Source: an uncultured Anaerolineaceae bacterium
GTDB lineage: Bacteria > Chloroflexota > Anaerolineae > Promineifilales > Promineifilaceae
Reading direction: 5' to 3'
Assembly (NCBI GenBank): GCA_937967805.1
Contig: CALBTC010000048.1
Location: 1 to 21,746 of the forward strand
Length of the DNA: 21,746 nucleotides
Shown piece after piece: positions 9 to 18,077 of this stretch. The notes under the pieces are model-generated. The model did no database searches. It saw nothing but the letters and a program-made list of their open reading frames with translations, and was not told where the DNA came from. Position 1 is the first letter of the stretch; the number at the start of each line of letters is the position of its first letter. A program made the translations under genes and the position numbers.

Positions 9-251
9 TCATGTCTTAGAATGATTGGCCTGGCTAATGTAAAAAATACCTACTACCACCAAAGCAAGCGGCCACAAAATTGCTAACCAACTCCCCGCAA
101 GCCAGATGAGTCCAAATATCAGGCAGCAGAGACCACAAAGAGTAACGGCCGTTTTCTCATTAAGATCAATTTTGGGGCAGCAGATAAACGCCGTTGGCTT
201 TTTTACCTGTTCTGCGTCTTTCAAATTTTTGATTTCCGGTTCTACATTCAT
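9..251 (-). CDS. Small Cys-rich membrane protein, unknown function
   Basis: An 80-residue protein whose family I do not recognise. The N-terminal 30 residues are polar and carry a CC pair (residues 24-25). Two hydrophobic segments follow (about 37-56 and 58-73), and the first contains CGLCC (39-43). The start has a good ribosome site (AAGGATG). It is the last visible gene of the leftward mer-like cluster, 41 bp after the thioredoxin-like selenoprotein gene. Its Cys pairs next to membrane segments recall small metal transporters such as MerF, but the sequence does not match closely enough to name it. It ends at a UGA with only 8 bases beyond it in the window, so a selenocysteine readthrough here cannot be judged. 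Confidence 0.65.
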   Translation of the reverse strand: MNVEPEIKNLKDAEQVKKPTAFICCPKIDLNEKTAVTLCGLCCLIFGLIWLAGSWLAILWPLALVVVGIFYISQANHSKT

Positions 252-292: not shown

Positions 293-877
293 TCATTGGT
301 CTAATTCCTCCCACAAAGTGGTTAGATCGGATTCAAGCTGCTCACGTTGGGCAAAAATAGTCACACCAGAACGAATCAATGGTTCAGGTAATGTCTGCCA
401 ATTTGCTTCTGCACCGTATAAAAAATAAATATCCCAGGCTACTCGACCAAAATTAAGGTCACGAAAATGGTTCCCCACAATAAATTCATCATTCCAATAA
501 TGGGTAGCGCGCGGGTCGGTCATTAAGCTGGTTGCTTCGCTGGCCTGTTCTCGCTTTCCACCTAACACCGGTTTCCACACAACGTATACCTTTATATCGG
601 CTTCAGGATTAGGAGTCAGAATATTTTCTTGTACCCACCGGGTACCTAAACGGCACTCTGGTCAGGTGGGCGCCACAATAAGGAGCAGTCTGGGTTGACC
701 CGCATCTGCTGCAAAGGCCGCTTGTAATGCAGAAATGTCGGCCAGATCAGAGAGTCTGTTTTGGCCATCATCAGGTACGGGTGTGACGGCCGTATCTAAT
801 TCAGACCGACAAGCCGAAAGGAACACAATAAAAAATAGGATGATTATTCCAAGGATTGATATTTTATTCTTCGTCAT
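293..877 (-). CDS. Thioredoxin-like lipoprotein, putative selenoprotein (UPEC)
   Basis: A 194-residue protein if the in-frame UGA at 662-664 is read as selenocysteine (residue 72). Residues 1-23 form a lipoprotein signal (lipobox FLSAC, Cys23), followed by an acidic/Pro linker. The segment LLLIVAPT-U-PEC has the beta-strand-then-CxxC layout of a thioredoxin fold, giving a U72-x-x-C75 redox pair. Reading continues in the same frame for 122 codons with coherent protein sequence (KVYVVWKPVLGG, then VAWDIYFLYG), which argues against two separate genes. A hairpin at 631-645 fits a bacterial SECIS. The protein should sit on the outer face of the membrane and act as a thiol/selenol oxidoreductase. 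The natural partner is the DsbD/CcdA-like carrier encoded nearby. The start at 877 has no obvious Shine-Dalgarno. I do not recognise the exact family. Confidence 0.72.
631..645 (-). promoter_or_regulatory. Putative bacterial SECIS hairpin (thioredoxin-like gene)
   Basis: On the coding strand this reads GTACCC-GGT-GGGTAC: a perfect 6-bp stem with loop GGU. The first loop base is 23 nt after the UGA. G at the start of a short apical loop, 16-37 nt downstream of the UGA, is the known bacterial SECIS layout. The same distance is seen in the GDCCV gene. Confidence 0.6.
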
Positions 878-980
878 TTATCAGTTTTTATGCCACCGAG
901 AATGAAAACCTGATAATGATGTTGATAAGTAGGCAGCCATATCAAAGGTTCCTTACCAGGCACCAGTTACATCATTCAGC

Positions 981-1061
981 CAATTGTAACGGCCGTTGTC
1001 TGTATGAAAAGTTACCGCTAACACCTGTGATTTACCTTTTCATACCGCAGTTCAATTGTAA
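981..1061. repeat. 9-bp direct repeats around a 10-bp inverted repeat
   Basis: CAATTGTAA occurs at 981-989 and again at 1053-1061. Between them are the perfect inverted repeats GTATGAAAAG (1002-1011) and CTTTTCATAC (1036-1045). This lies in the 228-bp gap (878-1105) between two selenoprotein genes. No T-run follows on either strand, so it is not a typical terminator. It could be a decayed small insertion with a target duplication, or an RNA-processing hairpin. I see no convincing gene in the gap. Confidence 0.5.
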
Positions 1062-1105
1062 ATAAACAAATTAACTCATTCATATCCACCATATTGCATT
1101 TCGTA

Positions 1106-2479
1106 TTAGCGTAGCTTTTTGGCCGTATCTTTCACCATCTCGCTCAGGGTCGGGTGAATGTAGATGGATTTGAAAAGGGATTCGGCCGTACCTTTGTTGT
1201 TCATCGTGGTCACCACCTGATGAATAAGATCATCGGCATGAGGACCTAGGATGTGCCCGCCCAACATTTCACCGGTTTGTCCATTAGCTATAAATTTGAG
1301 CATCCCTTCTGTCTCGCCAATCGCTTTGGCGCGGCCAGAATGTGCAAAATAGGCCATACCGGTTTTTACCTCATATCCAGCGCCTATTGCTTCCGCTTCC
1401 GTCAGCCCCACGCTAGCTAAAGCAGGTTGGGTAAAGACGGCACGCGGCACAACGCGGTAATCCACCGTGCGCCCGGCATCTTTGATGGCATTGAGTGCCA
1501 CAATTGGTCCGTCATAGGTGGCACGATGGGTGAACATCGCCCCACCATTCACATCGCCTAACGACCAGATGTTGGCGGCGGTGGTGCGTAAGGCTTCATC
1601 GTACACAATGCCATTCCCCTCCACTTGAACGCCAGCCTGTTCCAATCCCAATCCCTCAACACGGGGGACGCGCCCAGCCGCATATAAAACCTCTTCTGCC
1701 TCATTGCGATGTTCTTGCCCATTGACAGTGGCGATAATTGTTTTTTGACTGCCTGTTTTTTCAGCGCGAACGGCCGTTGCGCCCAACCGCACCTCAATCC
1801 CTTCTGCCGTTAAAACTTGCGCCAGCCGTTCAGACAACTCTGGCTCTTCCTGTTTCATCAGGCGCGAACTTCGGCTGAGAAGCGTTACTTTCGTGCCAAA
1901 CCGAGCATACATCTGGGCAAACTCCACGCCAATATAACCGCCTCCAATCACAATCAACGAAGATGTCACTTTTTGCATCATCAGCGCTTCGTGATTGGTC
2001 AGATACCCTATGTCGGAAAGGCCGGGGATTTGCACATCAGCGGTGCGTGATCCGGTGGCGATAACGCTTTTGCTGGCCGAAATCTGTTTGCCATCCACAC
2101 GAATGTCAACCGGCGAGGTAAATTCGGCGTGACCGCGTATGAAGGTGACGTTCGGATTGGGATTGACCCAACCATAAATGCCGTCAATAATGCCCTGTAC
2201 GATTTTGTCTTTACGAGCAACGGCCGTTTCCAAATCAAACCATATTTGTGTTGGATCTAAACCGCGCACCCCAAATTCACGGGCGCGGTTGCGGACTAAC
2301 TGCATCACTTCGGCAGACCTTAACAAGGTCTTGGTGGGGATACACCCCTCATTCACTCAGGTGCCGCCGACTTCGTGCATCTCAATGAGAGCAACATTCG
2401 CCCCCAATCTTGCCGCCAAAGCGGCTGCGGGTAGGCCGCCTTGCCCTGCGCCAATGATGGCTAAATCATACTGTGTCAT
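1106..2479 (-). CDS. MerA-like FAD disulfide reductase, putative selenoprotein (UxxxxC)
   Basis: A 457-residue pyridine nucleotide-disulfide oxidoreductase. It starts at ATG 2477-2479, with GGAG 9 nt upstream. An FAD-binding GxGxxG (IIGAGQGG, residues 8-15) is followed by GGT-U41-VNEGC46-IPTK. The in-frame UGA at 2357-2359 replaces the first cysteine of the family's redox-active CxxxxC. The NAD(P)H-binding GGGYIG, the second FAD motif (SLGDVNG) and the C-terminal HPTLSE catalytic His-Glu are all present. Compared with classical MerA it lacks the N-terminal HMA domain and the C-terminal vicinal cysteines, so metal reduction is inferred from the neighbouring mer-type genes. A dihydrolipoamide dehydrogenase-like role on another disulfide or selenenylsulfide is the main alternative. 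It lies 19 bp after the DsbD-like gene, in the same operon. Confidence 0.88.
2315..2331 (-). promoter_or_regulatory. Putative bacterial SECIS hairpin (MerA-like gene)
   Basis: On the coding strand this reads AGACCTT-GTT-AAGGTCT: a perfect 7-bp stem with loop GUU starting 33 nt after the UGA, at the far end of the usual SECIS distance. If the top U-A pair opens, the loop becomes UGUUA with G second, which also fits the rule. It encodes KTLLRS, a normal family segment, so the stem is built into conserved coding sequence. Confidence 0.55.
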
Positions 2480-2498
2480 TTGTCTACTCCAACGCCAT

Positions 2499-3344
2499 TT
2501 ACGGAAACAATATTTGAGCGAACAGATCCGCCCAAATGGCTAAGACCATCAGCCAAGTCCCAACCGCCAATAAAATAAAACCACTGCCTCGCTTAACGGT
2601 TCGCGTGCTTCCTTTCAATGTAGTAACAACATGAGTTTGTGCCAATCCGATAGCGAAGACCAGCACAGCCATAACCACGGCAATCGTGATGGCCGCCGTG
2701 AGAAAAGCAGTGAAAGCGGCCGTTTCATTAGCCACCGTTAGTGCGTGCAAGGCCAGACCAGCCAAGATTGGCCCCGTTCAACCAAAGCCCGCCAAAATGT
2801 AGCCAAAGCCGTACAGACCATAACCCAAAGACGACTTTTTACGCTGCCAGCGTGTTTGCGTATGCCAAAGCGGTTGTAACAACTGATTCAGCCAAACAAA
2901 ATTGAGGGATTGCCCCCGAAGTTGCCAGAGACCAAAGCCTATCAAAATCAGTCCCACCATCAAACGAAGACTGCGTCCGGCATCACTGGTAAAGGTAAAT
3001 TGGGAGATGAACGAACCAGCACCAACAGCCAGTGCAGTTCCGAGCAACATCAGGAAAGCCATCATGCCCAGCGTAAAAGCAACGGCCGTACGAACCAGTG
3101 TCTTTTTGGAATTCGTCGCTTCTTCTCGTGCCAAAAGCGTCACCAGCAAGGGGAACGAGCAAGGCGAAAATAAGGAGGCCAGCCCAGCAACTATGGCTAA
3201 TAGAATAAGTCCACTGCCAACATTAGACGGCCGTGTCACATGCGGATACAAAATGAAACTGCTGTAACCAATCAGAGCCAGTAAGAGAACCCCTATCGCG
3301 AGTAAAATATACGAGAAACCACGATTGTTGTTTGTATTATCCAT
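2499..3344 (-). CDS. DsbD/CcdA-like transmembrane redox carrier, putative selenoprotein
   Basis: A 281-residue membrane protein if the UGA at 2778-2780 is read through (residue 189). After an N-terminal anchor helix come the CcdA/DsbD features: SLFS-PC62-SFPLL in the first core helix and, after the fourth, GYILAGFG-U189-TGPILAGLA. In this family the second site is a Cys at the same place; the sister gene at 5875-6558 has ASLSC-TLPVFLA there. Such proteins pass electrons from cytoplasmic thioredoxin across the membrane to exported thiol proteins. Here the couple would be Cys62-Sec189. The start has AAGGAG upstream. The gene follows a MITE and is 19 bp ahead of the MerA-like gene. The likely clients are the thioredoxin-like and MerP-like lipoproteins. 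Confidence 0.85.
2751..2763 (-). promoter_or_regulatory. Putative bacterial SECIS hairpin (DsbD-like gene)
   Basis: On the coding strand this reads GGCT-GGTCT-GGCC: a short 4-bp stem with one G-U pair and loop GGUCU starting 19 nt after the UGA. The loop sequence and its distance equal what I recall of the E. coli fdhF SECIS. The stem is weaker than those in the other four genes. Confidence 0.45.
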
Positions 3345-3386
3345 TTATAAAACTCCTTCGTATTTGAAATTCCTTCAACGACTACC

Positions 3387-3538
3387 AAGGGTTTTTCAGT
3401 GTTTGAAAAAATGTACAAACACTTTAGCGTAAGATTGCCTTTTTAAGGCAAATTTCTTGGCTTCTAGGCAAATCACAGCAATTTTTGCGCATGTTCATGA
3501 TTTTTATTGTGTACTTTTGCTTTTACTGAAAAACCCTT
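3387..3538. mobile_element. 152-bp MITE-like element with 14-bp TIRs and 10-bp target duplication
   Basis: Perfect terminal inverted repeats AAGGGTTTTTCAGT (3387-3400) and ACTGAAAAACCCTT (3525-3538) continue imperfectly inward for about 15 bp more. They are flanked by exact 10-bp direct repeats AACGACTACC at 3377-3386 and 3539-3548. The AT-rich interior has no reading frame. The right end supplies two bases of the TAA stop of the upstream lipoprotein gene. Without the insertion the same codon would read TGA after the same last residue, so the protein is unchanged. Removing the element leaves about 30 bp between the two operon genes. A 10-bp duplication is compatible with IS4-type transposases, but the helper is not in this window. 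Confidence 0.85.
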
Positions 3539-4118
3539 AACGACTACCGCCGGGCCATACCAAAATCGGAAAATTAACTACAATACCTGGCTCTGTTATT
3601 GTTACTTCTCCATTGGCTTCAGCTTCCTTGACTTCGGCAACTGAACGGAGCTCCATGGGTGTTACCCCTTCATCCCATTCTACTAACAATACGTTACGCA
3701 ATGGACGGTAAGCGTCATCACCCGGCACAGAATCAAAAATGTCCTGTTGAAAACCAAACGGGCCATGCCCCTCAATCCCATTTGTAAAAACATATAAAGT
3801 TGCCAATAGGGAAGAAGGTGCATCAGCAAGTTCTGGCACCAAGATAACTTGCGGGCCGCCCATCATTTCGGTGAGCATCGTTGCCACCTCACGATCTGAA
3901 GTTTCAGTATGGATGAATAAGACCTCGCCACCGTTATAGAGGCCGCCCACTAACGGCGCATATTGCTGTGTTGTTTGTGAGCTATCAACGCCCATGTTGT
4001 CCATGCCTTCCATGATACTTGTCGGTTCTGCTGTTGGTACGGCCGTTTCTGCTGCACAAGCAGCCGCTAAAAATAGTATCAGAACAATACCTAAAATATA
4101 TTTGATACGGAGTTTCAT
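3537..4118 (-). CDS. Secreted lipoprotein of unknown function
   Basis: A 193-residue protein with a lipoprotein signal (FLAAAC, Cys21), a Met/Asp-rich linker (EGMDNMGVD, about 37-45) and one globular domain from about residue 53 to the end. The domain contains VGGLYNGGEVLFIHTETSD, VFTNGIEGHGPFGFQQDIFDS and VNFPILVWPGG. It resembles an uncharacterised secreted domain seen next to metal genes, possibly DUF7482, but I am not certain of that assignment. There are no cysteines beyond the lipid anchor and no obvious catalytic triad. The start has a strong ribosome site (AAGGAAGG) inside the 3' end of the MerE-like region. The stop codon is formed at the MITE junction. A substrate-binding role at the outer membrane face is only a guess. 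Confidence 0.75.
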   Translation of the reverse strand: MKLRIKYILGIVLILFLAAACAAETAVPTAEPTSIMEGMDNMGVDSSQTTQQYAPLVGGLYNGGEVLFIHTETSDREVATMLTEMMGGPQVILVPELADAPSSLLATLYVFTNGIEGHGPFGFQQDIFDSVPGDDAYRPLRNVLLVEWDEGVTPMELRSVAEVKEAEANGEVTITEPGIVVNFPILVWPGGSR

Positions 4119-4168
4119 TTATTTACCTTCCTTTGGAAAAAGTGCATCGCACCTGAATAAATCAGACT

Positions 4169-4441
4169 TCATGATTCGACTGGCTGTTTCTCCTTCAGGT
4201 CAACCGGACATGCTTCGGCTTCATCAGCCATCAACCATTTTCCAGCCAAGATCAGCCCGCCGATGAACAACACAGCCGAACTTGCATAAATGAGGATTGT
4301 GTTATTTGCCAGCCAGCCGCCAACGGCCGTTCCCGCCATCAGTGCCAAAATCAAAGGGAGCGTCAATGGCAAATGACAGGGACAAATCAAAAATGCGCCC
4401 ACCCCGGCCACATAACCGCGAATTTTCAACCAGATAAGCAC
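4169..4441 (-). CDS. merE: MerE-like small mercury transporter
   Basis: A 90-residue protein with two membrane segments. IRGYVAGVGAFLI-C20-P-C22-HLPLTLPL matches the MerE pattern, in which a CPCHLP motif in the first helix binds Hg(II) during uptake. The second helix covers about 47-70, and a polar tail with one Cys follows. It is about 10 residues longer than Tn21 MerE. The GTG start lies 2 bp after the stop of the CopZ-like gene, so translation is probably coupled. It ends with UGA. Continuing past it gives 17 further codons that stop at an ATGA overlap with the next gene, and a hairpin (4140-4154) lies 21 nt downstream. Readthrough is possible but weakly supported; see findings. Confidence 0.75.
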   Translation of the reverse strand: MLIWLKIRGYVAGVGAFLICPCHLPLTLPLILALMAGTAVGGWLANNTILIYASSAVLFIGGLILAGKWLMADEAEACPVDLKEKQPVES

Positions 4442-4443
4442 AC

Positions 4444-4968
4444 CTAAACCAGAACGGCCGCCGCAAATTCCGCCTCAATTCGCTTGACGACCTTGCCCAC
4501 ATTGCCCAGGCAGCAGCTTCCCTGCGGGTTGCGGATGTCGCAGGCGCACTGCCCCGTTTTTGTACCCTCCGTAACGCGGGCGACGACATCGGTAACGCCC
4601 TGCTCAAATTCGGCGCGAATGCTGCCGGGGCTGTGATTGAAGCAATAACAGACGTTCACATCATCCGCCATCGGATGCTTTTGGTGCACCCGCTCCCGCA
4701 GCTGATCCTCGGTGAAAAATTGCCCCGCTTCATCGCCATAGTAGACGACGGGACAACTTTCTGTGCGGCAAAAACGGTAGCTGGCCGACGGCCGTACTAC
4801 TTCCAGGCTAACGGTCAGCATCGCTTTGACGATTTGGGTATCGACCGTTTTTCCTTTTTTGCCGCAGGAAGGGCAGGCTCCTTCTGCCAGGTTAGCGGAA
4901 ACGGCCGTATTTACCGCCTGTTCCGCAGGTACAGCACAACTTTCATCGGTTGCACAACAATCAGACAT
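4444..4968 (-). CDS. CopZ-like iron-sulfur metallochaperone
   Basis: A 174-residue cytosolic protein. The start is ATG 4966-4968, with AAGGAG 7 nt upstream; a longer reading to 5028 lacks a ribosome site. Cysteines are arranged as in the N-terminal domain of Archaeoglobus CopZ and related [2Fe-2S]/zinc metallochaperones: CPSC (32-35), FCRTESC (67-72), CYCF (107-109), then the BFD-like CAC (141-143) and NPQGSCCLG (148-155). The usual C-terminal HMA domain of CopZ is absent. In this family the cluster-bearing part is thought to reduce or hand over metal. Here it sits between merT and the MerE-like gene, so it could accept or reduce metal entering through them. No UGA interrupts this gene. Confidence 0.82.
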   Translation of the reverse strand: MSDCCATDESCAVPAEQAVNTAVSANLAEGACPSCGKKGKTVDTQIVKAMLTVSLEVVRPSASYRFCRTESCPVVYYGDEAGQFFTEDQLRERVHQKHPMADDVNVCYCFNHSPGSIRAEFEQGVTDVVARVTEGTKTGQCACDIRNPQGSCCLGNVGKVVKRIEAEFAAAVLV

Positions 4969-5052
4969 GAGAATCTCCTTTGGCGAGAGCGAGAAGAAAA
5001 CCTCTTGCTGGCGCCAGCAGCTTGTCAAAAAAAAACCTTTGGCCCCCGTGGT

Positions 5053-5414
5053 TTATCCGGCCAGCGTCATTGTCACCGGCAGGGAACCCAGAAGCGTAAA
5101 CAAAACCGCTAACACCGCCGAAAGCCACACAATCTGGCGCTGGCGGCGCAGCGATTTGGGCGAACAGACCCCTTCAGCACAGTCCGCTTCCGCCTTGGGT
5201 CGGTACACTACGTAAAAAGCCGCGCCCAGGAACAAAAGCTGATGGGCAGCGTGATGGAGCGGTAGCGCATCAGAAAGGCAAAGGGGCCGAGGCTGGTGAA
5301 GCCCGCCACCAGCAGCACCACCGGCAGAACACAGCAGCTGGCGTTAAGGGTGGCCGCCAGCGTGGAGATGAGCGAACCAGATCGGCTTTTAGTAGTGAAA
5401 GGGTTGTTTTTCAT
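5053..5414 (-). pseudogene. merT: MerT mercuric transport protein, split by a one-base frameshift
   Basis: Two overlapping frames together make a MerT of about 120 residues. The first (from ATG 5412-5414) has the helix-1 metal site ASCCVLP (Cys27-Cys28). The second, ending at 5053, has FLGAAFYVVYRP, the cytosolic-side pair DCAEGVC and a last helix. Adding one T to the TTTT run (+ strand A-run 5234-5237) restores LPISFLFLGAAFYVVY. MerT takes Hg(II) from MerP and passes it inward. The start overlaps the MerP stop (ATGA). It may be a true inactivation or a homopolymer sequencing error. The intact flanking motifs favour an error or a very recent event. Both MerT Cys pairs are ordinary cysteines. 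Confidence 0.85.
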
Positions 5415-5860
5415 GGTTCAAATGTTCCTGTTACTGCATAGCCAACGGCCGCAACCGCCTGACTAATTTCCTCTGGCTCCACCTGTGCCGGATCGTAAGT
5501 CACCATCAAGGTATTTGTGCTTAAGTCGCCTGTCGTTTCCATGATGCCCGGCAACTGCCGGACGCTCGCGAGAGTCACGGCGATTCAACCGCCTCAGACC
5601 CAGCCGCTGATATTGAAGCCGGTGGTGACCTGGGTGGCAGCAGGTGCGGACGGCGATTCATTTACCTCAACCGGGGCCGTTTCCGGATTTGTGTTGAGAA
5701 CCGGCGTGGCTGCCGGTGGCGCTGCGGAAGGATTGGGGTCTGCCTGACTACCGCACCCGCTCAAGCCCATTGCCAGGATGAGCATGCCCAACAGCCAAAC
5801 GGCCGTTCTGCGCAGCCAACCCCTGTGAGTTGGCGATGACAAAAAAGAGAGGGATTTCAT
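5411..5860 (-). CDS. merP: MerP-like HMA lipoprotein, putative double selenoprotein (UGGU)
   Basis: A 149-residue protein if two in-frame UGAs (5594-5596 and 5585-5587) are read as Sec89 and Sec92. A lipoprotein signal (GLSGC, lipobox Cys near residue 36) and an Ala/Pro/Glu-rich linker precede an HMA domain (83-149): GWV-U-GG-U-IAVTLASVRQLPG, then VTYDPAQVEPEEIS and AAVGYAV. The two UGAs fall exactly on both cysteines of the CxxC metal site. After them the frame stays open for the rest of a complete HMA fold and ends in an ATGA overlap with merT. In MerP this motif binds Hg(II) outside the membrane and delivers it to MerT. A hairpin at 5548-5561 fits a SECIS. A start-codon ribosome site (GGAG) is present. 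Confidence 0.85.
5548..5561 (-). promoter_or_regulatory. Putative bacterial SECIS hairpin (MerP-like gene)
   Basis: On the coding strand this reads CCGGCA-GT-TGCCGG. With the top pair open, the loop is AGUU with G second. The loop G is 30 nt after the second UGA and 39 nt after the first. One element may serve both codons. A smaller hairpin, GGCG-N7-CGCC, also forms across the second UGA. Confidence 0.55.
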
Positions 5861-5874
5861 AGGTTCAACTCCGT

Positions 5875-6558
5875 TTACGATTGAAAATTAGACAAAATCA
5901 CGGGCATATACCGCCCTACATACCAGATTAGATATAGTCTGGCGGCTATCAGCAGCGCCGCGCCCACTTTGTGAACATAGGGCAGGGAACGCTGGATATA
6001 TTGCAGCAAGGCGTCTTTCGCCAGGGCAATGCTGACCACAATCGTCATCAAAACGGCCGCCATGCCTGCGCTGTACCCGCCAAACATCGCTACCGCTTCA
6101 ACCGGGCCTCTCAGGGTGAGACTACCGGCAACCACCGCCAGAAAAACAGGCAGGGTGCAGCTCAAGGAAGCTACGCCGTAGGCCACGCCATACAAAAACA
6201 CTGATTTGGCATTTCGTGCCTGAAGGCTGAATTCGGGTATTGGCAAAGCAAACGGCATTGCATTCCCAGCCAACAACCACACCCCAAACAGCACCAGTCC
6301 TAGCCCCACTACCAACGCACCCAGAGGCAGTACCTGCACAAAGCCGACGACGCTGAATACCAGCACAAAACCGGCAGTCATCAACAGCCCCAAGCGCACC
6401 CCTTCCAGAGCGCGATGACCGACCGGACGCTGGTCGTAGTCTGCTTCTTTGGCGCCCAGGTAGTAGGAAGCATAAGCGGGCAGCAATGCCCAACCGCACG
6501 GGTTTACTGTTGCCAGCATCCCAACTGAAAAGGCCCAGGTTAACAAGACGGCATTCAT
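5875..6558 (-). CDS. CcdA-like cytochrome c biogenesis/thiol transport protein
   Basis: A 227-residue protein with about six membrane helices. It has the two family redox sites as normal cysteines: ATVNP-C21-GWALLPAY in helix 1 and YGVASLS-C134-TLPVFL in helix 4. CcdA proteins carry reducing equivalents from cytosolic thioredoxin to the outer face. The start codon overlaps the stop of the GDCCV gene (ATGA), and the merP start follows its stop by 14 bp, so it is firmly within the mer-like operon. Its role here is probably to keep the MerP-like selenol/thiol pair reduced. It is the all-Cys counterpart of the gene at 2499-3344 and a useful internal control for that gene's Cys-to-UGA change. Confidence 0.88.
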   Translation of the reverse strand: MNAVLLTWAFSVGMLATVNPCGWALLPAYASYYLGAKEADYDQRPVGHRALEGVRLGLLMTAGFVLVFSVVGFVQVLPLGALVVGLGLVLFGVWLLAGNAMPFALPIPEFSLQARNAKSVFLYGVAYGVASLSCTLPVFLAVVAGSLTLRGPVEAVAMFGGYSAGMAAVLMTIVVSIALAKDALLQYIQRSLPYVHKVGAALLIAARLYLIWYVGRYMPVILSNFQS

Positions 6559-6776
6559 GGCTGCCCTTTGGCTAATGCTTCAAGTTGTTTACCAATGCAG
6601 TGATGGTCGCCAAAGGAGCAGAAGACACAACAGTCGCCGGGGTGCGGACGTAATCTAGTACCACAACTGGTACACGTGTGAAACGCCAGTCAATAATCCA
6701 GCGGAATATCTAATTCAACAACAAAGCTGCATTCAGGGCAGGTTAAATTGGTGCGGGTAACAATCCGTTCATCCAT
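6555..6776 (-). CDS. GDCCV heavy-metal-binding protein, putative selenoprotein
   Basis: A 73-residue cytosolic protein if the UGA at 6690-6692 is read as Sec29. CPEC (13-16) and HTCTSCG (33-39) frame a zinc-ribbon-like site, followed by the diagnostic GDCCVFCSFG (47-56) and a final Cys60. In the GDCCVxC family the segment before the second Cys pair is typically D-x-C-x-x-F-x-x-C-x-x-C-G. Here it is D-Y-U-L-A-F-H-T-C-T-S-C-G, so UGA takes the place of a conserved cysteine. It is the first gene of the leftward operon behind the MerR-type promoter and overlaps the CcdA-like gene by ATGA. It probably buffers incoming soft metal in the cytosol. It has been missed by simple ORF calling because of the UGA. 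Confidence 0.85.
6658..6673 (-). promoter_or_regulatory. Putative bacterial SECIS hairpin (GDCCV gene)
   Basis: On the coding strand this reads GTACCA-GTTG-TGGTAC: a perfect 6-bp stem with loop GUUG starting 23 nt after the UGA. The stem GUACC-like sequence and 23-nt spacing are shared with the thioredoxin-like gene. Confidence 0.6.
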
Positions 6777-6831: not shown

Positions 6832-6862
6832 AGGATACACCTTCCGGTTACTGGAAGGTCAA
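6832..6862 (-). promoter_or_regulatory. MerR-type promoter of the mer-like operon
   Basis: Leftward -35 TTGACC (6857-6862) and -10 TATCCT (6832-6837) are separated by 19 bp. That is the over-long spacer typical of MerR-family targets. The spacer is filled by a 21-bp dyad, ACCTTCC-N7-GGAAGGT (6839-6859), of the CueR/CadR operator class. It drives the GDCCV gene and those behind it. It lies 14 bp after the regulator's stop. Confidence 0.9.
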
Positions 6863-6875
6863 GAGGGTATTCTTT

Positions 6876-7289
6876 TTAGCTATTTTCTGATTGTTCGCTG
6901 ACGAGATGGCAGACACAATTTTTGCCATCCACATCATCGGTAGGGAATGTTTCACCCAACTGGCGTAGTTCACGTAGTTCAGTTTCCATACGTTGCAATT
7001 CCGCAATGCGACGGTTGATTTCGTCTGCTTTTTCTTCCAGCAAATCTAGAATTACCCGACAAGGAGCAATGCGTTTATCCCGTAAATCAAGAATCTCTTG
7101 AATATCGTCGAGGGAAAAATCTAGCCGACGCGCTCCTGCCACGAGTCTAGCACGGACAACATCTGCTTCGTTGTAATCACGGTAGCCATTTTCCAATCGC
7201 TGGGGTGGGGGCAGTAAGCCGACTTCTTCGTAGTAGCGAATGGTTTTGGGGGGCAAGTTGGTTTGTTGGGCGAATGTTTTCATCTGCAT
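6876..7289 (-). CDS. MerR-family metal-sensing activator
   Basis: A 137-residue regulator. The start ATG 7287-7289 has GAGG 8 nt upstream; the longer reading to 7319 would begin inside its own -10 box. It has the winged helix FAQQTNLPPKTIRYYEEVGLLPPPQR (6-31), the second wing region NGYRDYNEADV, and a dimerisation helix (about 81-112). Metal ligands are likely Cys77 (APCRVILDLLEEK), Cys125 and Cys127 (NCVCHL). MerR itself uses three cysteines at comparable places, while the CxC near the C terminus also resembles Zn/Cd/Pb sensors. The identity of the metal therefore rests on the operon (merP, merT, merE-like). It is autoregulated through a second copy of the operator at 7318-7338. Confidence 0.9.
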   Translation of the reverse strand: MQMKTFAQQTNLPPKTIRYYEEVGLLPPPQRLENGYRDYNEADVVRARLVAGARRLDFSLDDIQEILDLRDKRIAPCRVILDLLEEKADEINRRIAELQRMETELRELRQLGETFPTDDVDGKNCVCHLVSEQSENS

Positions 7290-7310
7290 AGGGTTTACCT
7301 CATATAGCAT

Positions 7311-7341
7311 ATGATACACCTTCCAGTGGGTGGAAGGTCAA
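7311..7341 (-). promoter_or_regulatory. MerR-type promoter of the regulator gene
   Basis: Leftward -35 TTGACC (7336-7341), 19-bp spacer, -10 TATCAT (7311-7316), with dyad ACCTTCC-N7-GGAAGGT at 7318-7338. It is a near copy of the promoter at 6832-6862, which implies that the regulator activates itself and the operon together. Confidence 0.9.
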
Positions 7342-7408
7342 GCCGGTTAGCGGAGAAATAAATGTGCCTTCGTTCATAATTATACAAGTCGATTTTTTTA
7401 ATGGGTTT

Positions 7409-7442
7409 GGGAAAGGTCAACAGAAGTGCCACTGCCTTTCCC
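7409..7442 (+). other. Hairpin upstream of the peptidase-like gene
   Basis: Perfect 8-bp inverted repeat GGGAAAGG (7409-7416) and CCTTTCCC (7435-7442), ending 24 bp before the start codon. It is probably a 5' untranslated stem-loop. There is no T-run, so termination is unlikely. The rest of the gap 7342-7466 is AT-rich and may hold the promoter, but I see no clear -35/-10 pair. Confidence 0.5.
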
Positions 7443-7466
7443 CCTGTCACATGAGGAGTGAAACAA

Positions 7467-8681
7467 ATGTCAAATGAAAAAAATGATAAAGTAACTGTTC
7501 ACCGTTTTCATGGAGAGCTGGGGGGTAAAAAGCATGAACATCCCCTCTTACCGCTGGAGTATGGTCACCCGGTTACCGTCACCGATGCCGATATTCCGGC
7601 AGGTTTGACGACCGAAAATGTAGCTGTTATTGAGATGCGGGGCAATCGTTTTCGTTCATTGAACGGCAATGATTTTCCGCTAAGCAATTGGGTAGATGCC
7701 TTTGCCGAAGTAAAGGATCGGTATGGCGACTGTTTTGATTTTGTGGTGTTTTTCACCGATCCACGCTTGCCCAGCATCCCTTACTCTGGCTATCATCGCG
7801 GAATCTACAATGAGGTAGACGGTATCAATCGCGGTAATTATAACAGCCGGGCAACCTGGAATTCGGCCCGGCTACAATCCCAACTTTGGATGGGGCGGTT
7901 CAGCTTGGGCACACTGCTCCAGGAAATTGGCCATCGCTGGGGTTCATTTGTGCGCTATCGCATTAAACCTGGTGATCCATTGCAAAATGATCTCATGCTG
8001 CCTGGCGGTGGCCATTGGGCACAAGAATTTGATGATGGCAACTCCCCAATGGACTACGACGAAGAACGACATATTCGCCTAAACAGCACCACCTGGCTTC
8101 GAGAACCCGTGGGTGGCTTCGAATTTAAGTTTTGTAATTTGGATCTGTATTTAATGGGCATGAAAGAACCCAACGAGGTAGGGCGGTTTACACTTATTCA
8201 AGACTATACACCGTTTGGTCCAACCCTACCTGGGGGTCGCCAGTTAATTCAGGGAACGGGTTTAAACCTGACCGTCACAAATATCAGACGAGCTGAAGGG
8301 TCGCGCAATCCTCGCGAGAGGGATTCGCAAAAGAACTTCCGCGCTGCGTTTGTAGTGGTGACCCGAGATGAAGACCAGCTTGATCCAACCTTTGTGAAAA
8401 AGGTGGAAGTGCTACGTCAGCAAACCGAACAATATTTCCAGGTGGCTACGGATAATCGAGCCTGCATGGATACACGGCTCTGCTGTGGGCACACCATTTC
8501 ACGCAGTGGTGAAGTCAAAATGAATCTTAAGGCCGATAAAATTACCTGGAGTCCCTATTTGTATCATGGCTTGGGGCCAATTCCGGCAAAGGTGGAAGTG
8601 GGCATTGAAACGTCAATTGGCGGCGATCCCATTGATGCCTGGTCTCGTGAAGAGACTCCTGACATTACCACAGGCGTATAG
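7467..8681 (+). CDS. Divergent metallopeptidase-like protein, ends at a premature amber codon
   Basis: A 404-residue protein. The ATG at 7467 has GAGGAG 8 nt upstream. Motifs resemble large secreted zinc-peptidase-like proteins of Chloroflexota: LLQEIGHRWGSFV (150-162) where HExGHRW is expected, GGHWAQEFDDGNSPMDYD, and a DLYLMGM segment like the family's LDLYLMGL. The first zinc His is Gln (Q152), so catalysis is doubtful. There is no signal peptide. The ORF stops at TAG 8679-8681, but the same frame continues for 38 more coherent codons (RYSYEVRFRIVAQAKGG, then NLNITFRWW) to TAG 8796-8798. This looks like a nonsense mutation (CAG to TAG). The gene holds no ACGGCCGT copy, unlike most neighbours. 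It is transcribed away from the mer-like cluster and its role is unknown. Confidence 0.7.
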   Translation: MSNEKNDKVTVHRFHGELGGKKHEHPLLPLEYGHPVTVTDADIPAGLTTENVAVIEMRGNRFRSLNGNDFPLSNWVDAFAEVKDRYGDCFDFVVFFTDPRLPSIPYSGYHRGIYNEVDGINRGNYNSRATWNSARLQSQLWMGRFSLGTLLQEIGHRWGSFVRYRIKPGDPLQNDLMLPGGGHWAQEFDDGNSPMDYDEERHIRLNSTTWLREPVGGFEFKFCNLDLYLMGMKEPNEVGRFTLIQDYTPFGPTLPGGRQLIQGTGLNLTVTNIRRAEGSRNPRERDSQKNFRAAFVVVTRDEDQLDPTFVKKVEVLRQQTEQYFQVATDNRACMDTRLCCGHTISRSGEVKMNLKADKITWSPYLYHGLGPIPAKVEVGIETSIGGDPIDAWSREETPDITTGV

Positions 8682-8846
8682 CACTTATCTGCTCAGGTGA
8701 ATCGTTATTCGTATGAGGTACGTTTTCGCATCGTCGCTCAAGCCAAAGGTGGCAATCTCAACATTACTTTCCGCTGGTGGGCGAGTGCCATCAGTTAGAC
8801 TTTATGATGTTATGCTCAGACTGAAATAACGCGAAACCACATTTTC

Positions 8847-8908
8847 TTGACAACCGAATAGAGTAAGTTATTATATTGTGAGGCATATATGAAGATATGT
8901 TCATATAT
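8847..8908 (+). promoter_or_regulatory. ArsR promoter and operator
   Basis: -35 TTGACA (8847-8852) and -10 TATATT (8872-8877), with a 19-bp spacer (18 if TTATAT is used). A perfect dyad ATATATGAA-N6-TTCATATAT (8885-8908) follows at the start of transcription. This matches the AT-rich 12-2-12 type operators of SmtB/CzrA-class repressors. Confidence 0.85.
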
Positions 8909-8917
8909 TTGATGGTT

Positions 8918-9223
8918 ATGACTGACAATAAAAACCTTGTAGATGAAGTACTAGCCGGGCAAATAGCTGAACTATTCAGGGCCCTGGGCGATACAAGCCG
9001 CATACAGATTATCGCGGCGCTAACGAAGAATGATTTGAATGTCGGCGAATTGGCTGACCTGGTAAAGATCAGCCATTCGGCCGTTTCTCACCACCTGCGC
9101 CACCTTAGACAAATGAAATTAGTGCGTACCCACAAGGAAGGTCGTCATGTGTTCTACAGTTTAGACGATGACCATGTGCGTGACTTGTTCCTCTGTGGTC
9201 TGGAGCACGCCCAGCATGGCTAA
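8918..9223 (+). CDS. CzrA-like ArsR/SmtB metal-responsive repressor
   Basis: A 101-residue winged-helix repressor (IAELFRALGDTSRIQIIAAL, then ISHSAVSHHLRHLRQMKLVRTHKEGRHVFYSL). The alpha-5 metal site is complete: Asp84, His86, His97 and His100 (DDDH, then HAQH). That is the CzrA zinc/cobalt site, and starting at ATG 8918 reproduces the CzrA residue numbers. The alpha-3 cysteine site of ArsR/CadC types is absent. Upstream ATGs at 8897 and 8912 are in frame, but the first lies inside the operator and none has a strong ribosome site. It should release the operator at 8885-8908 when Zn or Co binds, turning on the ATPase operon. Its stop overlaps the next start. Confidence 0.9.
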   Translation: MTDNKNLVDEVLAGQIAELFRALGDTSRIQIIAALTKNDLNVGELADLVKISHSAVSHHLRHLRQMKLVRTHKEGRHVFYSLDDDHVRDLFLCGLEHAQHG

Positions 9224-9539
9224 CGGCCGTTTGTTTCACCTTTTTTCCGTTTTCTGGCTGTGCCTGGCTGCTACCAGTCTGCTTGGCCATTACCTGGCAG
9301 ATGCAACCAGTATGGGGTGTAAGGTCAACGTGACCGCCAGTTGCCAGGATGAAGATACCACGACAAACTTCCAGACGACGGATGAAAATGAATCTTACGC
9401 AACGGCACTTCACGCTGGATTTAACATACCAGCCAATCTTTCTGTACCCCTCAGCCTGGCATTAACCCTGGCCACCAGCCTCCTCACCCTACCCCCTGTC
9501 GTAGTAAAGCCACCAGTTCTTTCCCCACCGCCTCAATAG
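9216..9539 (+). CDS. Small membrane or exported protein, unknown
   Basis: A 107-residue protein starting at ATG 9216, overlapping the last 8 bases of the arsR-type gene, so it is translated by coupling. It has an N-terminal hydrophobic segment (about 6-25, signal-anchor like), a polar middle with two Cys and many Thr/Asp/Glu (35-63), a second hydrophobic segment (about 75-95) and a Pro-rich end. I do not recognise a family. Its place between repressor and ATPase suggests a minor part in the same Zn/Co response. The gap to the ATPase (9540-9626) holds only a ribosome site (GAAGGAG). Confidence 0.6.
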   Translation: MANGRLFHLFSVFWLCLAATSLLGHYLADATSMGCKVNVTASCQDEDTTTNFQTTDENESYATALHAGFNIPANLSVPLSLALTLATSLLTLPPVVVKPPVLSPPPQ

Positions 9540-9626
9540 CCCTTCATACATCTTTACTGATAAATAATTAGACAGCAAATAGATAGCAACTCTAACCTGC
9601 TTGCTGATGACAATGAAGGAGTACCG

Positions 9627-12050
9627 ATGAGCGAACAGACTATCCAATTAGACATTCCCTTAATTTTGCCGGACATTGAAGATGCCCGCGATGATTGCCT
9701 TACGAAACTAAACCAAATGCTGGAAAATCACCGGGGCATCCAGCGAGTTCACGTGAATTATGATGCCGATCCGCCCCAACTCTGCCTGCACTTCGATCCC
9801 AATCTCATCTCACTGGCGACGGTGGAGCGTATGGCACGAGATGCTGGCAGCAGCTTTACCAATCGCTACCGGCATGAAGCCATTCCCTTCACCGGCATGA
9901 CGAGTGCAGATGCGGCCGATTCATTGGCAGCTCTGCTGCGCGACCTGCCTGGCATGTTGCACGCCAGCGTCAACTATGCCGCTGGTTTCGCCTTTGTGGC
10001 CTATGACATCACCATTTTGCAACGGCCGCTTATCCACAAGACACTTCAACGTATGGGTTACAGACCGCTCCGGCCAACGATTCAACCAGATGGGGAGCCA
10101 AGCGAACCACAAGAAAAAGAAGACCACGAAGACCACGACCACGGCAGCGCCCCCGCCTTCCTGCCCCATTGGATGCAAGAGCGGTGGACGCTGATTTTGG
10201 TGGCGCTGGCCGGTCTGTTCTTTCTCATTGGCTGGCTGGGCGAGACGTTTTTTAATATGCCGGAAACAATGGCAATCGCCTTCTTTGTTCTTTCTTACGT
10301 CTCTGGTGGTTACGACATTGCCACCCACGCCATTCCCGGCTTGCTCAAAGGCAAGTTTGATACCGATGTCCTCATGCTGGCGGCAGCGGCTGGAGCCGCC
10401 TTGCTGGGCGAATGGAGTGAAGGTGCCTTTCTCTTGTTTCTTTTCAGTCTGGGTCATGCCGGGGAGCATTATGCACTGGATCGTGCCCGCAACGCCATTA
10501 ACGCCCTGGGCGAACTGATGCCTAAAACGGCACGTGTCAAACAGGGTGATGAGATTGTCGAACGGCCGGTAGAGCAGGTCGCAGTAGATGATGTGGTCGT
10601 CGTTCGCCCCGGCGACCGCATTCCGGTTGATGGCGAGATTGTGCGCGGCACCAGCGCCATTGACCAGAGCGCCATCACTGGAGAAAGCGTGCCGATGAAC
10701 AAAAAGGAAGGTGACGAGGTTTTTGCCGGGACGATTAACCAGGAAAATGCCCTTGATGTGAAAGTGACCAAACTGGCGCAAGACAATACGCTCAGCCGGG
10801 TGATGCAAATGGTGGCCGAGGCGCAGGAGCAGCAAAGCCCAACGCAGCAGTTGACCCAACGCTTTACGGCCAAGTTTGTGCCCGGTGTTCTCGTTTTTGT
10901 GCTGCTGGTTATCGTCGTGCCCCCGCTGATCGGCTGGATGTCCTGGCAAAACAGTTTCTATCGGGCAATGCTGCTGTTAGTTGCTGCCTCGCCCTGTGCA
11001 TTGGCTTTAGGCACACCTGCTTCGGTGTTGGCCGGGATTGCCCAGGCCGCCCGCAACGGCGTTCTGATAAAAGGCGGTGTCCACCTAGAGAATTTGGGTA
11101 ACCTCAATGTAATAGCCTTTGACAAGACAGGGACATTGACAGAGGGCAAGTTCAAGGTAACAAACAGTGTGCCACTCAATGGAACCAGCGTGGATGATCT
11201 GCTGCGTATTGCGGCGGCGGTAGAACAGCAGTCCAATCACCCGCTGGCGCTGGCTGTGGTACGGGCAGCGCAGGCCAAAGGGCTGGACTTACCTCCGGCC
11301 AATGGTCTGGAAAACGTGACCGGTCGCGGCGTAAAAAGTGAAGTGGGCGGCAAGCCGGTGCTCATTGGTTCGCTGAAGCTCTTCCGCGAAGCCAATGGAC
11401 ACGCTTTGGATGATGCGGTGGTACGAACAGTTGAGCAGTTTGAGAGTAAGGGCAAGACGACGATGGCGGTGAGTCAAGACGGCCGTTTCCTGGGCGTGCT
11501 GGCACTGGCTGACACACCCCGCGCTGGCGTGAAAGAAACGCTGCAAAAGCTGCTCGACCTCGGCGTAAAGAAGCTGGTCATGCTCACTGGCGACAACGAC
11601 GACGTGGCCCAGCAGATTGGCAAAGAAGTCGGTGTTACTGACGTGCGTGCCGAGCTGTTACCAGAACAAAAGCTGGCAGCGATCAAAGAACTTCAGCAGG
11701 AACATGGGGATATTGCCATGGCCGGGGATGGTGTCAACGATGCCCCAGCCTTAGCCACAGCCACGGTAGGCATTGCCATGGGGGGTGCAGGAACGGCCGT
11801 AGCCCTGGAAACGGCCGATGTCGCGCTGATGGCTGACGATCTGAGTAAACTGCCCTTTGCGGTTGGTCTCAGTCGCGCTACGCGTGCCATCATCCGCCAG
11901 AATTTGGCTGTGTCATTGGGTGTGATTGGCATTTTGATCGTCACATCCGTTCTCGGTGTTGTGGCGTTAAGCGGAGCCGTTATCTTGCACGAGGGCAGCA
12001 CCATTATTGTCGTATTGAATGCGCTGCGATTACTGAGGTATCGAGCATGA
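9627..12050 (+). CDS. P1B-4 type heavy-metal P-type ATPase with cysteine-less HMA domains
   Basis: An 807-residue exporter. Two N-terminal HMA-like domains (about 8-75 and 85-150) have lost their CxxC: the second reads GMTSADAA where GMTCxxC is normal. A His/Asp/Glu-rich stretch (EKEDHEDHDHG, 163-173) follows. Core motifs are TGES (351-354), SPC in TM4 (455-457), DKTGTLTEG with phosphorylated Asp499, the HP motif (538-539), GDGVNDAP (700-707), and HEGST in TM6 (788-792). SPC plus HEGG/S-T defines the P1B-4 group (CoaT, CtpD, PfeT-like), which exports Co, Fe or Zn. That group usually lacks HMA domains, so degenerate ones are unusual. The CzrA-like repressor upstream fits Zn/Co. It overlaps the next gene by ATGA. 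Confidence 0.93.
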   Translation: MSEQTIQLDIPLILPDIEDARDDCLTKLNQMLENHRGIQRVHVNYDADPPQLCLHFDPNLISLATVERMARDAGSSFTNRYRHEAIPFTGMTSADAADSLAALLRDLPGMLHASVNYAAGFAFVAYDITILQRPLIHKTLQRMGYRPLRPTIQPDGEPSEPQEKEDHEDHDHGSAPAFLPHWMQERWTLILVALAGLFFLIGWLGETFFNMPETMAIAFFVLSYVSGGYDIATHAIPGLLKGKFDTDVLMLAAAAGAALLGEWSEGAFLLFLFSLGHAGEHYALDRARNAINALGELMPKTARVKQGDEIVERPVEQVAVDDVVVVRPGDRIPVDGEIVRGTSAIDQSAITGESVPMNKKEGDEVFAGTINQENALDVKVTKLAQDNTLSRVMQMVAEAQEQQSPTQQLTQRFTAKFVPGVLVFVLLVIVVPPLIGWMSWQNSFYRAMLLLVAASPCALALGTPASVLAGIAQAARNGVLIKGGVHLENLGNLNVIAFDKTGTLTEGKFKVTNSVPLNGTSVDDLLRIAAAVEQQSNHPLALAVVRAAQAKGLDLPPANGLENVTGRGVKSEVGGKPVLIGSLKLFREANGHALDDAVVRTVEQFESKGKTTMAVSQDGRFLGVLALADTPRAGVKETLQKLLDLGVKKLVMLTGDNDDVAQQIGKEVGVTDVRAELLPEQKLAAIKELQQEHGDIAMAGDGVNDAPALATATVGIAMGGAGTAVALETADVALMADDLSKLPFAVGLSRATRAIIRQNLAVSLGVIGILIVTSVLGVVALSGAVILHEGSTIIVVLNALRLLRYRA

Positions 12051-12700
12051 CAACAAATCAAGCCCTTCGCTGGTATAACGGGCTTTCTCTTGTTCACGAC
12101 TTGCTCAGTTTCAACGATTGGCCCTATCGTGATGCCAGAAAACAAGCTATTAACACGCTTGATTTGCAACCGGGCGATACGGTGATTGATTTGTTTTGCG
12201 GTACAGGCGTGAATTTTGGGCCTATCCTGGAACGAATCGGCAAGCATGGTCAGCTAATTGGCATAGATGGCTCCACTGGCATGTTGGCCCGTGCCCGTAA
12301 GCGAATCAACAAAGCAGGCTGGAAACCAGAACAGATTACAGTAATAGTGAGGGACTTGCTTAATCTGCCCCCAGATTATTTCTCAACTATCTTGTCGGCT
12401 GGTGTCGTCCCTAAAGTGCTGATCACCTTAGCTCTGGGTGTCCTTTCCAATTACGAAGAGGTTTTTACCAACGTTTTCAACGCCGTGCCAGATGGAACAC
12501 GCTTTGTCATATTGGAAGGTTACTGTGAGGAAGGGGCAAGAGGCGCTTGGCTGCTCAACTTCATCGGCTACTCAGATTGCCGCCGTCCTGTGTGGGAGCC
12601 AGTGCAAGACCTGACTCATGACTATCAAGAAACGTGGTATCCAGCCAAATTCAAATATATTCAAGGCTCCCTACTTGTTGCTACAGGGGTAAAAAGATAA
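12047..12700 (+). CDS. Class I SAM-dependent methyltransferase
   Basis: A 217-residue protein with motif I VIDLFCGTGVNF (46-57) and the acidic residue ending strand 2 (LIGIDGSTGM), followed by a motif II/III region. It resembles the UbiE/phospholipid methyltransferase group by length and by the N-terminal helix (WYNGLSLVHDLLSFNDWPYRDARKQAI). The start overlaps the ATPase stop (ATGA) and the stop overlaps the next methyltransferase by one base (TAATG), so the three are coupled. The substrate is unknown. A lipid or small molecule is likelier than a metal, since no arsenite-methylating cysteines are present. Confidence 0.85.
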   Translation: MTTNQALRWYNGLSLVHDLLSFNDWPYRDARKQAINTLDLQPGDTVIDLFCGTGVNFGPILERIGKHGQLIGIDGSTGMLARARKRINKAGWKPEQITVIVRDLLNLPPDYFSTILSAGVVPKVLITLALGVLSNYEEVFTNVFNAVPDGTRFVILEGYCEEGARGAWLLNFIGYSDCRRPVWEPVQDLTHDYQETWYPAKFKYIQGSLLVATGVKR

Positions 12701-13314: not shown

Positions 13315-13346
13315 AACTTGCGTTATCAATAAGGACGACAAACCTA

Positions 13347-13970: not shown

Positions 13971-14009
13971 GCGCCGGTGGAGATGGGTGGCCAGTAGTAG
14001 GAGCGAATA

Positions 14010-14867: not shown

Positions 14868-14871
14868 GACT

Positions 14872-18013: not shown

Positions 18014-18061
18014 TTATCCTCTGGCCTCTGTTCGCTAGATAGTGCGACAGAGGCCGGATAA
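18014..18061 (+). other. Long stem-loop before the CDF-SPFH gene
   Basis: TTATCC (18014-18019) pairs with GGATAA (18056-18061), and GGCCTCTGT (18023-18031) with ACAGAGGCC (18047-18055). A 3-base bulge separates the two stems. An inner CGC/GCG extends the stem. It ends 16 bp before the start codon and 8 bp before the ribosome site. There is no T-run, so it may be a processing or regulatory hairpin, or a weak terminator of the kinase operon. The remaining gap (17918-18013) shows nothing clear. Confidence 0.55.
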
Positions 18062-18077
18062 TCTGCGGAAGGGATCT

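Follow-up and report, generated by a model that had tools for sequence, protein, structure and literature searches.

A putative mer-type operon of predicted selenoproteins in an uncultured bacterium of the Chloroflexota

A 21,746-nucleotide stretch of contig CALBTC010000048.1 (assembly GCA_937967805.1), from an uncultured Anaerolineaceae bacterium of the Chloroflexota and referred to here as the window, carries a mer-type operon, five genes of which are predicted to code for proteins that contain selenocysteine (Sec). We favour, at about even odds, the explanation that this operon captures Hg(II) with selenolates, imports it and has a Sec-Cys flavoprotein reduce it to Hg(0). We tentatively suggest that Chloroflexota possess a selenium-based mercury detoxification route in which selenolates replace thiolates at the capture step, at the flavin site and in a transmembrane relay, and which would include three uncatalogued selenoprotein families. 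The genes run leftward in the order merR, GDCCVxC (Sec), a ccdA-like gene in Cys form, merP-like (two Sec), merT, copZ-like and merE-like. The distal half follows, with genes for a DUF7482 lipoprotein, a second CcdA-like protein (Sec), a MerA-like flavoprotein (Sec), a thioredoxin-like lipoprotein (Sec) and a protein of 80 residues. All operon features described below lie on the minus strand.

In-frame UGA codons and their reading as selenocysteine

An earlier note, made from the letters of the window, had placed six in-frame UGA codons in five genes of this cluster, and all six were found where it had put them. The GDCCVxC metal-binding protein (6555..6776; NF041374, 80.4 bits against a cut-off of 40) has its UGA at codon 29 (6690-6692), and the MerP-like HMA lipoprotein (5411..5860; PF00403) has two, at codons 89 and 92 (5594-5596 and 5585-5587), which predict a UGGU motif. 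In the distal half the predicted residues are Sec189 of the CcdA/DsbD-like electron carrier (2499..3344; PF02683), within a GFGUTGP motif (UGA 2778-2780), Sec41 of the MerA-like class-I flavin disulfide reductase (1106..2479; PF07992 and PF02852), within GGTUVNEGC (UGA 2357-2359), and Sec72 of the thioredoxin-like lipoprotein (293..877), within APTUPEC (UGA 662-664). These six codons are the sole internal stops in the five genes.

Relatives of the flavoprotein were found on eight genome contigs, seven from Chloroflexota and one from Neomarinimicrobiota; a search of 396 sampled genomes of the class (E 1e-110) recovered the protein from 14 of them, with 15 matches that each contain one TGA. After removal of loci fetched twice, the set held 19 loci in 18 genomes, or 20 rows with the window. 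Codon 41 is TGA in all 20 rows (19 of 19 loci from different assemblies), codon 46 encodes Cys in each of the 19 rows that extend to it (locus L008 ends earlier), and there is no other stop in the 8478 aligned codons. Mean identity is 78.8% over the 40 codons preceding the UGA and 61.4% after it, with third positions varying most. An arrangement of two separate open reading frames (ORFs) with a restart after the UGA was rejected, since these first 40 codons are constrained as coding sequence.

Database annotation breaks off at the same point. Among the best 120 of 4434 flavoprotein homologues, 119, including that of the window, are missing everything up to the UGA; the only full-length one, P0215, has Cys at the Sec site. 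In the flavoprotein tree 17 Sec rows group in one clade (support 100/99) that includes P0215 and excludes canonical MerA. The position of P0215 within the Sec clade suggests that Sec was probably exchanged for Cys in this protein. Likewise, the CcdA-like protein has 105 database homologues, of which 100 stop at the residue preceding the UGA, 93 of them in AGFG and the rest in a near variant. Genes of these two families and of the thioredoxin-like lipoprotein are called at present as truncated proteins in databases.

At the other sites, relatives carry either UGA or Cys, P0094 (see below) excepted. The CcdA-like gene was found in seven of the 396 class genomes, with TGA in four (L025-L028) and Cys in three (L029-L031), and the database homologue P0117 also has Cys. 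The thioredoxin-like gene has TGA in five related genes from four genomes and Cys in two (L072 and L073); the related gene in L075 has UGA at both motif positions. The MerP-like relatives read UGA-UGA in L002, L003, L007 and L049, and UGA-TGC in L054. For GDCCVxC all relatives seen (L001, L002, L007 and L063) have TGA, and the Cys form rests on NF041374, itself a (seleno)protein model. Three of the families have relatives with Cys in place of Sec, as does one of the two MerP positions. At one end of contig L063 (139-1697), merR, GDCCVxC (Sec) and the CcdA-like gene (Sec) are adjacent, with no flavoprotein in view, so that two of the selenoprotein genes travel together here.

Candidate Sec insertion sequence (SECIS) hairpins, with a G first or second in the loop and 19 to 33 nucleotides past the UGA, are present in all five genes, as the earlier note had described. 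That of the GDCCVxC gene (6658..6673, GUACCA-GUUG-UGGUAC) is nearly identical in five of five genes, and the MerP-like one (5546..5563) has a core, CCGGC-AGUU-GCCGG, that is identical in six of six. The predicted flavoprotein hairpin (2315..2331, AGACCUU-GUU-AAGGUCU) lies in the stretch of highest synonymous conservation: codons 46-54 rank first of 79 windows, with a value of 0.924 where the column mean is 0.511. Codons 50-54 (AAG ACC TTG TTA AGG) are identical in nine of nine rows of the first flavoprotein subclade, and the Neomarinimicrobiota row shares them despite a protein identity of just 61%. The thioredoxin-like gene has its candidate at 631..645 (GUACCC-GGU-GGGUAC). The CcdA-like one (2751..2763, GGCU-GGUCU-GGCC) is weak in the window (-3.4 kcal/mol) and stronger in relatives.

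The hairpin scan, which required a G-loop starting 16-37 nucleotides after the UGA and an energy of -5 kcal/mol or lower, was passed by 31 of 41 UGA sites, and among control codon positions 1798 of 9674 passed. Because the sites are related, these proportions do not translate into a probability. For the MerP-like gene of L054, measured from its single UGA, the shared hairpin falls one base outside the scan and another hairpin was scored. The ten failures comprise the window CcdA-like site and nine of the ten rows of the second flavoprotein subclade; the lack of a simple G-loop hairpin in those nine counts against the overall proposal. Covariation was calculated from five rows each, a thin data set in which 108 and 197 of 500 shuffles reached the observed score; sliding the pairing partners sharply lowered pairing. 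The flavoprotein hairpin did not emerge as a local stem from RNAalifold in sliding windows; the two best windows, which begin just past the UGA, pair distant flanks.

The earlier note had taken absence of the Sec machinery from the genome as a reason to abandon its reading. We looked for SelA, SelB, SelD and tRNA-Sec in eight relative genomes and found at least three of the four parts in seven: all four in four genomes and three in three, with two in the remaining genome, G005. SelA exceeded its cut-off in every genome except G008 (the genomes are of unstated completeness). SelB was found in six, spread over two contigs in G002 and with nothing over cut-off in G005. SelD was found in seven, G005 being the exception, and each best SelD itself contains one TGA. 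A tRNA-Sec of at least 61.8 bits was present in seven genomes; the best match in G001, 47.3 bits, is no better than the second hits in G004 and G008, both of which also have a strong one. The window holds no tRNA and no Rfam match up to E 1. SelA passes in 315 of the 396 class genomes, which indicates that Sec use is common in the class and makes co-occurrence with SelA a weak test: its presence in 14 of 14 flavoprotein genomes would arise about 1 time in 20 by chance.

Together these data make the reading of the UGA codons as Sec about as firm as sequence alone allows, and it is very unlikely that they are true stops. The broader alternative, that the genes are truncated or decaying and their UGAs are genuine stops, sequencing errors or the result of a reassigned code, strikes us as extremely improbable. 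Some error or decay does occur in the window contig, where merT is split over two frames. There is also a metagenome protein, P0094 (DNA not seen), with Trp at the CcdA-like Sec site, which counts against Sec there; its Trp possibly comes from a gene call made with a genetic code in which UGA means Trp. Reassignment of UGA was rejected, as this codon also terminates five operon genes. Against the broader alternative stand the recurrence of one codon at 19 of 19 loci from different assemblies, the constrained first 40 codons of the flavoprotein, Cys in relatives and the Sec machinery in related genomes. The earlier note had named sense codons other than Cys in close relatives as a second reason for doubt; close relatives proved to have UGA and more distant ones Cys, apart from P0094, and in all five genes the conserved UGAs fall where relatives have UGA or Cys.

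Mercury context and the role of the flavoprotein

The window operon combines merT-, merP- and merE-type genes under a MerR-type regulator, the composition expected of a mer operon, although its merT is broken in this contig. Related loci add further mercury genes. In L002 and L007 the order is merR, GDCCVxC (Sec), merB, merP (two Sec), merT, copZ, merE and the flavoprotein gene (Sec), with a Cys-form ccdA gene also in L007. The L002 merB exceeds both the Pfam and the NCBIfam MerB cut-offs, and the MerB search gave matches over cut-off in genomes G002, G003 and G007. L003 carries canonical merA, merB, ccdA, merP (two Sec), merT and merE, followed by a regulator of CsoR type and the flavoprotein gene (Sec); the merA product has an N-terminal HMA domain, identified by eye, and an LSCCAG end. 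On the 3.97-Mb contig of L077 two different Sec thioredoxin-like genes flank canonical merA and merE on both sides (7134-10856), and in L078 one such gene has merB on one side and, on the other, a merA truncated by the contig end. These neighbours strengthen the mercury reading of the earlier note and make it well supported for the operon as a whole, while the chemistry of each step is inferred.

Several findings point the other way. Mercury genes (merE, merT, merP or merB) stand near the Sec flavoprotein in 9 of 16 loci examined with their surroundings, and none was seen nearby in the other seven, three of which (L004, L005 and L008) are cut by contig ends. The Sec flavoprotein of L003 sits beside a canonical merA and behind a separate CsoR-type gene. 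No MerR protein exceeded the cut-off of a mercury-specific model in the NCBIfam scan. The window regulator (merR, 6876..7289) scores with the MerR, CueR and CadR models of NCBIfam, each under its curated cut-off; by eye its product has a Cys82-like Cys and a C-terminal CVCHL motif.

That the selenoproteins are real and the operon instead answers another soft metal or oxidative thiol stress, with MerT-, MerP- and MerE-like parts reused, seems improbable to us. The copper, cadmium and mercury regulator models score alike, which suits this alternative, as does an operator dyad, CCTTCC...GGAAGG, that resembles the one of copper-type MerR regulators. The MerP-like HMA domain also scores with copper chaperone models, and a cluster with a ZntA-type P-type ATPase adjoins the operon. 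It is less easily reconciled with merB, which acts on organomercurials and lies within the same operon in L002, L003 and L007 and nearby in L078 and L086, or with canonical merA, which is found in the L003 operon and alongside the thioredoxin-like gene in L077 and L078.

MerB-like genes with UGA codons of their own were also observed. In L105 (9439-10263) and L107 (8042-8839) a MerB-like gene has one in-frame UGA at the position of MerB's second catalytic Cys (FTU); both proteins fall under the cut-offs of the MerB and SaoL models. In G006 there is a third MerB match, also with one TGA. From their sequences, these are possibly a further, Sec-containing organomercurial lyase.

The earlier note had called the flavoprotein a MerA-like reductase. 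The MerA signatures, as used in two papers, are a redox pair at 207/212, Tyr264, Tyr605 (bacterial) or Phe605 (archaeal) and a C-terminal Cys pair at 628/629 (PMC8261052, PMC3466566). In the Sec flavoproteins the redox pair is present as Sec-Cys, with UGA at the first position and Cys at the second in 19 of 20 rows, those that reach it. Tyr264, mapped by its distance from the redox pair, occurs in 15 of 19 Sec rows (the window included), in 7 of 7 MerA proteins and in 0 of 10 other paralogues. The best solved match by sequence is the mercuric reductase 5x1y. Other features detract from a MerA assignment: Tyr605 is replaced by His in 18 of 18 Sec rows, and the C-terminal vicinal Cys pair is found in 0 of 18 Sec rows versus 7 of 7 canonical MerA proteins. 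The 454.45-bit cut-off of the MerA model TIGR02053 is missed by the window (391.2), L006 (365.7) and L054 (379.5) proteins, while the dihydrolipoyl dehydrogenase model TIGR01350 (cut-off 408.8) is exceeded by the window (412.6) and L006 (415.3) proteins, L054 (397.4) falling below it. The protein is best described as MerA-like rather than MerA, because it misses the C-terminal CysCys and Tyr605; the likeness to MerA, the Sec-Cys pair and Tyr264 stand.

The likeliest role we infer for the flavoprotein from its sequence is Hg(II) reduction at the Sec-Cys pair. The main rival, which we regard as unlikely but serious, is a Sec disulfide reductase within a selenoprotein operon that still serves mercury resistance; it would feed electrons from NAD(P)H to a thiol/selenol relay that maintains MerP and its partners in reduced form, with mercury handled otherwise or by a MerA encoded elsewhere. 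The His of disulfide reductases in all 18 rows, the missing C-terminal Cys pair and the dihydrolipoyl dehydrogenase scores of two of the three proteins fit such an enzyme, and in the window the gene adjoins the Sec CcdA-like and thioredoxin-like genes. Canonical MerA coexists with the flavoprotein in 4 of 18 genomes; in the other 14 no MerA over the model cut-off was found. A canonical merA with the MerA signatures is likewise absent from the window, with one in the L003 operon. In L002 and L007, from genomes without a MerA over cut-off, the flavoprotein gene occupies the place of merA directly after merE, which speaks for the mercury role, as do the Tyr264 shared with MerA and the closest solved relative.

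The structural models fit a redox relay. The thioredoxin-like lipoprotein, for which no Pfam or NCBIfam model matched at E 1e-3, gave a model (predicted local distance difference test score, pLDDT, 77) that matches ResA, CcmG and DsbE folds. Proteins of this type are the usual partners of CcdA, and their pairing here suits a relay that would hold exposed selenols in the reduced state. Confidence in the CcdA-like model is low (pLDDT 68), and its best solved match is CcdA 5vkv (E 0.028); by sequence, no solved match was found.

Should Hg(II) reduction be the function of the operon, MerR would sense the metal and the Sec-Gly-Gly-Sec MerP lipoprotein would capture Hg(II) outside the membrane and pass it to MerT. 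MerT and MerE would import it, and binding or ferrying of the metal may be the part of the GDCCVxC and CopZ-like proteins. The Sec41/Cys46 pair, next to flavin adenine dinucleotide (FAD), would then take Hg(II) directly and reduce it to Hg(0), which would explain why the flavoprotein lacks the C-terminal Cys pair of MerA. The exposed selenols would be maintained in reduced form by the CcdA-like carrier and the ResA-like lipoprotein, both with Sec. Mercury owes its toxicity largely to binding selenols even more tightly than thiols; if the proposal is true, Sec at each mercury-handling step turns this affinity into a defence. It also raises a chemical question: could one Sec do the job of MerA's second cysteine pair?

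Other operon genes, promoters and surroundings

Two similar promoters were read by eye. That of the operon (6832..6862), TTGACC-N19-TATCCT with the CCTTCC...GGAAGG dyad in its spacer, fits the MerR-type promoter that the earlier note had put ahead of the leftward cluster with merT and a MerE-like gene. That of merR (7311..7341) reads TTGACC-N19-TATCAT with the same dyad. We set the merR start at the ATG at 7289, since the upstream GTG at 7319 would overlap this promoter. A loose promoter-pattern scan gave 26 matches, fewer than in shuffled sequence (mean 43), and the promoter claim therefore rests on the two like TTGACC-N19 sites seen by eye.

To the genes that the earlier note had listed we add a CopZ-like protein, the DUF7482 lipoprotein, a Cys-form CcdA-like protein, a probable 80-residue gene product and the split in merT. 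The Cys-form protein, CcdA2 (5875..6558), is a CcdA-like membrane protein with no match in Pfam or NCBIfam; it has weak similarity to the Sec CcdA-like protein, and its place is kept in L003 and L007. The merT gene (5053..5414) is split into ORFs at 5208-5414 and 5053-5235, with a frame break near 5208-5235 of the window contig; it is a single open frame in L002, L003 and L007. Its first piece matches the MerT model weakly, and the L002 counterpart matches PF02411. The break is either an assembly error or decay. The CopZ-like 2Fe-2S/zinc metallochaperone (4444..4968), in Cys form, exceeds the cut-offs of PF18423 and NF047645. The MerE-like transporter (4169..4441) scores 24.5 bits with PF05052 (cut-off 22.8) and falls under the cut-off of NF010310. 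The DUF7482 lipoprotein (3537..4118; PF24298) stays near operon genes in L067 and L068. The 80-residue membrane protein (9..251), an ORF with two CC pairs and no family match, had no counterpart in the relatives examined and is probably the last gene of the operon.

Elsewhere in the window, genes for an ArsR/SmtB regulator, a heavy-metal P-type ATPase and a methyltransferase run rightward beside the operon (8897-12700). A second metal cluster (13176-15867) encodes a CopM-like protein (under cut-off) and a fusion of CopC with cytochrome c, together with an ORF that matches no family. At 18042-19634 a cation-efflux (CDF) domain is fused to SPFH/Band 7, followed by two ORFs that appear Band 7-like by eye.

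Comparison with known selenoproteins and mercury systems

A 2026 review counts 119 selenoprotein families or subfamilies (PMC13188914). These include a Sec MerT, the UxxU metal-binding protein, GOS_B (NF041374, the GDCCVxC model), SaoT, TsoB and several thioredoxin-like UxxC families. A Sec form of MerP was reported from ocean metagenomes, along with a putative mercuric transport protein that contains Sec (PMC2398784). These single families (MerP, mercuric transport, UxxU of NF041115, GOS_B) are of the same kinds as our MerP-like and GDCCVxC genes and appear singly in those sources. The MerP-like protein scores 27 with NF041115, whose cut-off is 95.

Multi-selenoprotein operons are also on record. 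The Sec-assisted organometallic (SAO) system of Haft and Gwadz (2023), as the review summarises it, has a MerB-like lyase, a thioredoxin-like selenoprotein and parts of ATP-binding cassette (ABC) transport (PMC13188914). It shares with the window operon the grouping of several selenoproteins and, on that summary, the tie to organometals; it differs in having ABC-transport parts where the window operon has MerT, MerP and MerE. None of the 12 operon proteins scanned matched a Sao model at E 1e-3; for the flavoprotein this covers the best 25 of 80 matches, and for merT the first piece. In the Tso operon (Haft and Tolstoy, 2025), TsoB is described in the same text as a selenoprotein resembling a rhodanese/DsbD fusion (PMC13188914). 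Both operons thus place Sec in a DsbD-related protein among several selenoproteins, but the window protein has it in a CcdA-type GFGUTGP motif. No Tso selenoprotein family appeared in the NCBIfam tables for the operon proteins (for the flavoprotein, again among the best 25 of 80).

Two other Sec FAD oxidoreductases are described in the review, of the coenzyme A-disulfide reductase type (UGxP) and the type III sulfide quinone reductase type (HxxU) (PMC13188914). Like the window flavoprotein they carry Sec in a flavin disulfide-type oxidoreductase, but they belong to other classes with other motifs, and none in Table 1 of the review has Sec in the N-terminal CxxxxC pair. The Sec thioredoxin-like families share the fold and the UxxC motif of the window lipoprotein, which differs from them in matching no family model. 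Neither a class-I flavin disulfide reductase whose N-terminal redox pair contains Sec nor, TsoB aside, a CcdA-like family was seen in the accessible text of the review. Among the NCBIfam selenoprotein models, none matched the CcdA-like or thioredoxin-like protein, nor the flavoprotein among its best 25 of 80 matches. Among the titles and abstracts listed in our literature searches, with subscription papers outside the scope, none deals with a selenoprotein mer operon, a Sec MerA or dihydrolipoyl dehydrogenase, or a Sec CcdA. The earlier note knew of no whole mer-like pathway of Sec proteins, and these sources show none; Sec MerP/UxxU, Sec GDCCVxC and the SAO system were already known.

What is apparently new, judged against these sources, is Sec in the N-terminal pair of a class-I flavin disulfide reductase, in a CcdA-like carrier and in a thioredoxin-like lipoprotein, and the union of these in a mer operon. 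If this is true, the bacterial selenoproteome gains a class-I flavin disulfide reductase, a CcdA-like carrier and a ResA-like lipoprotein. With classical mer operons the window operon shares the type of regulator, MerT, MerE, a MerP-like HMA protein and a MerA-like flavoprotein in the place of merA, and its relatives have merB and a canonical merA. It departs from them in the predicted Sec of MerP, of the flavoprotein and of three accessory proteins, and in a reductase that dispenses with the C-terminal Cys pair.

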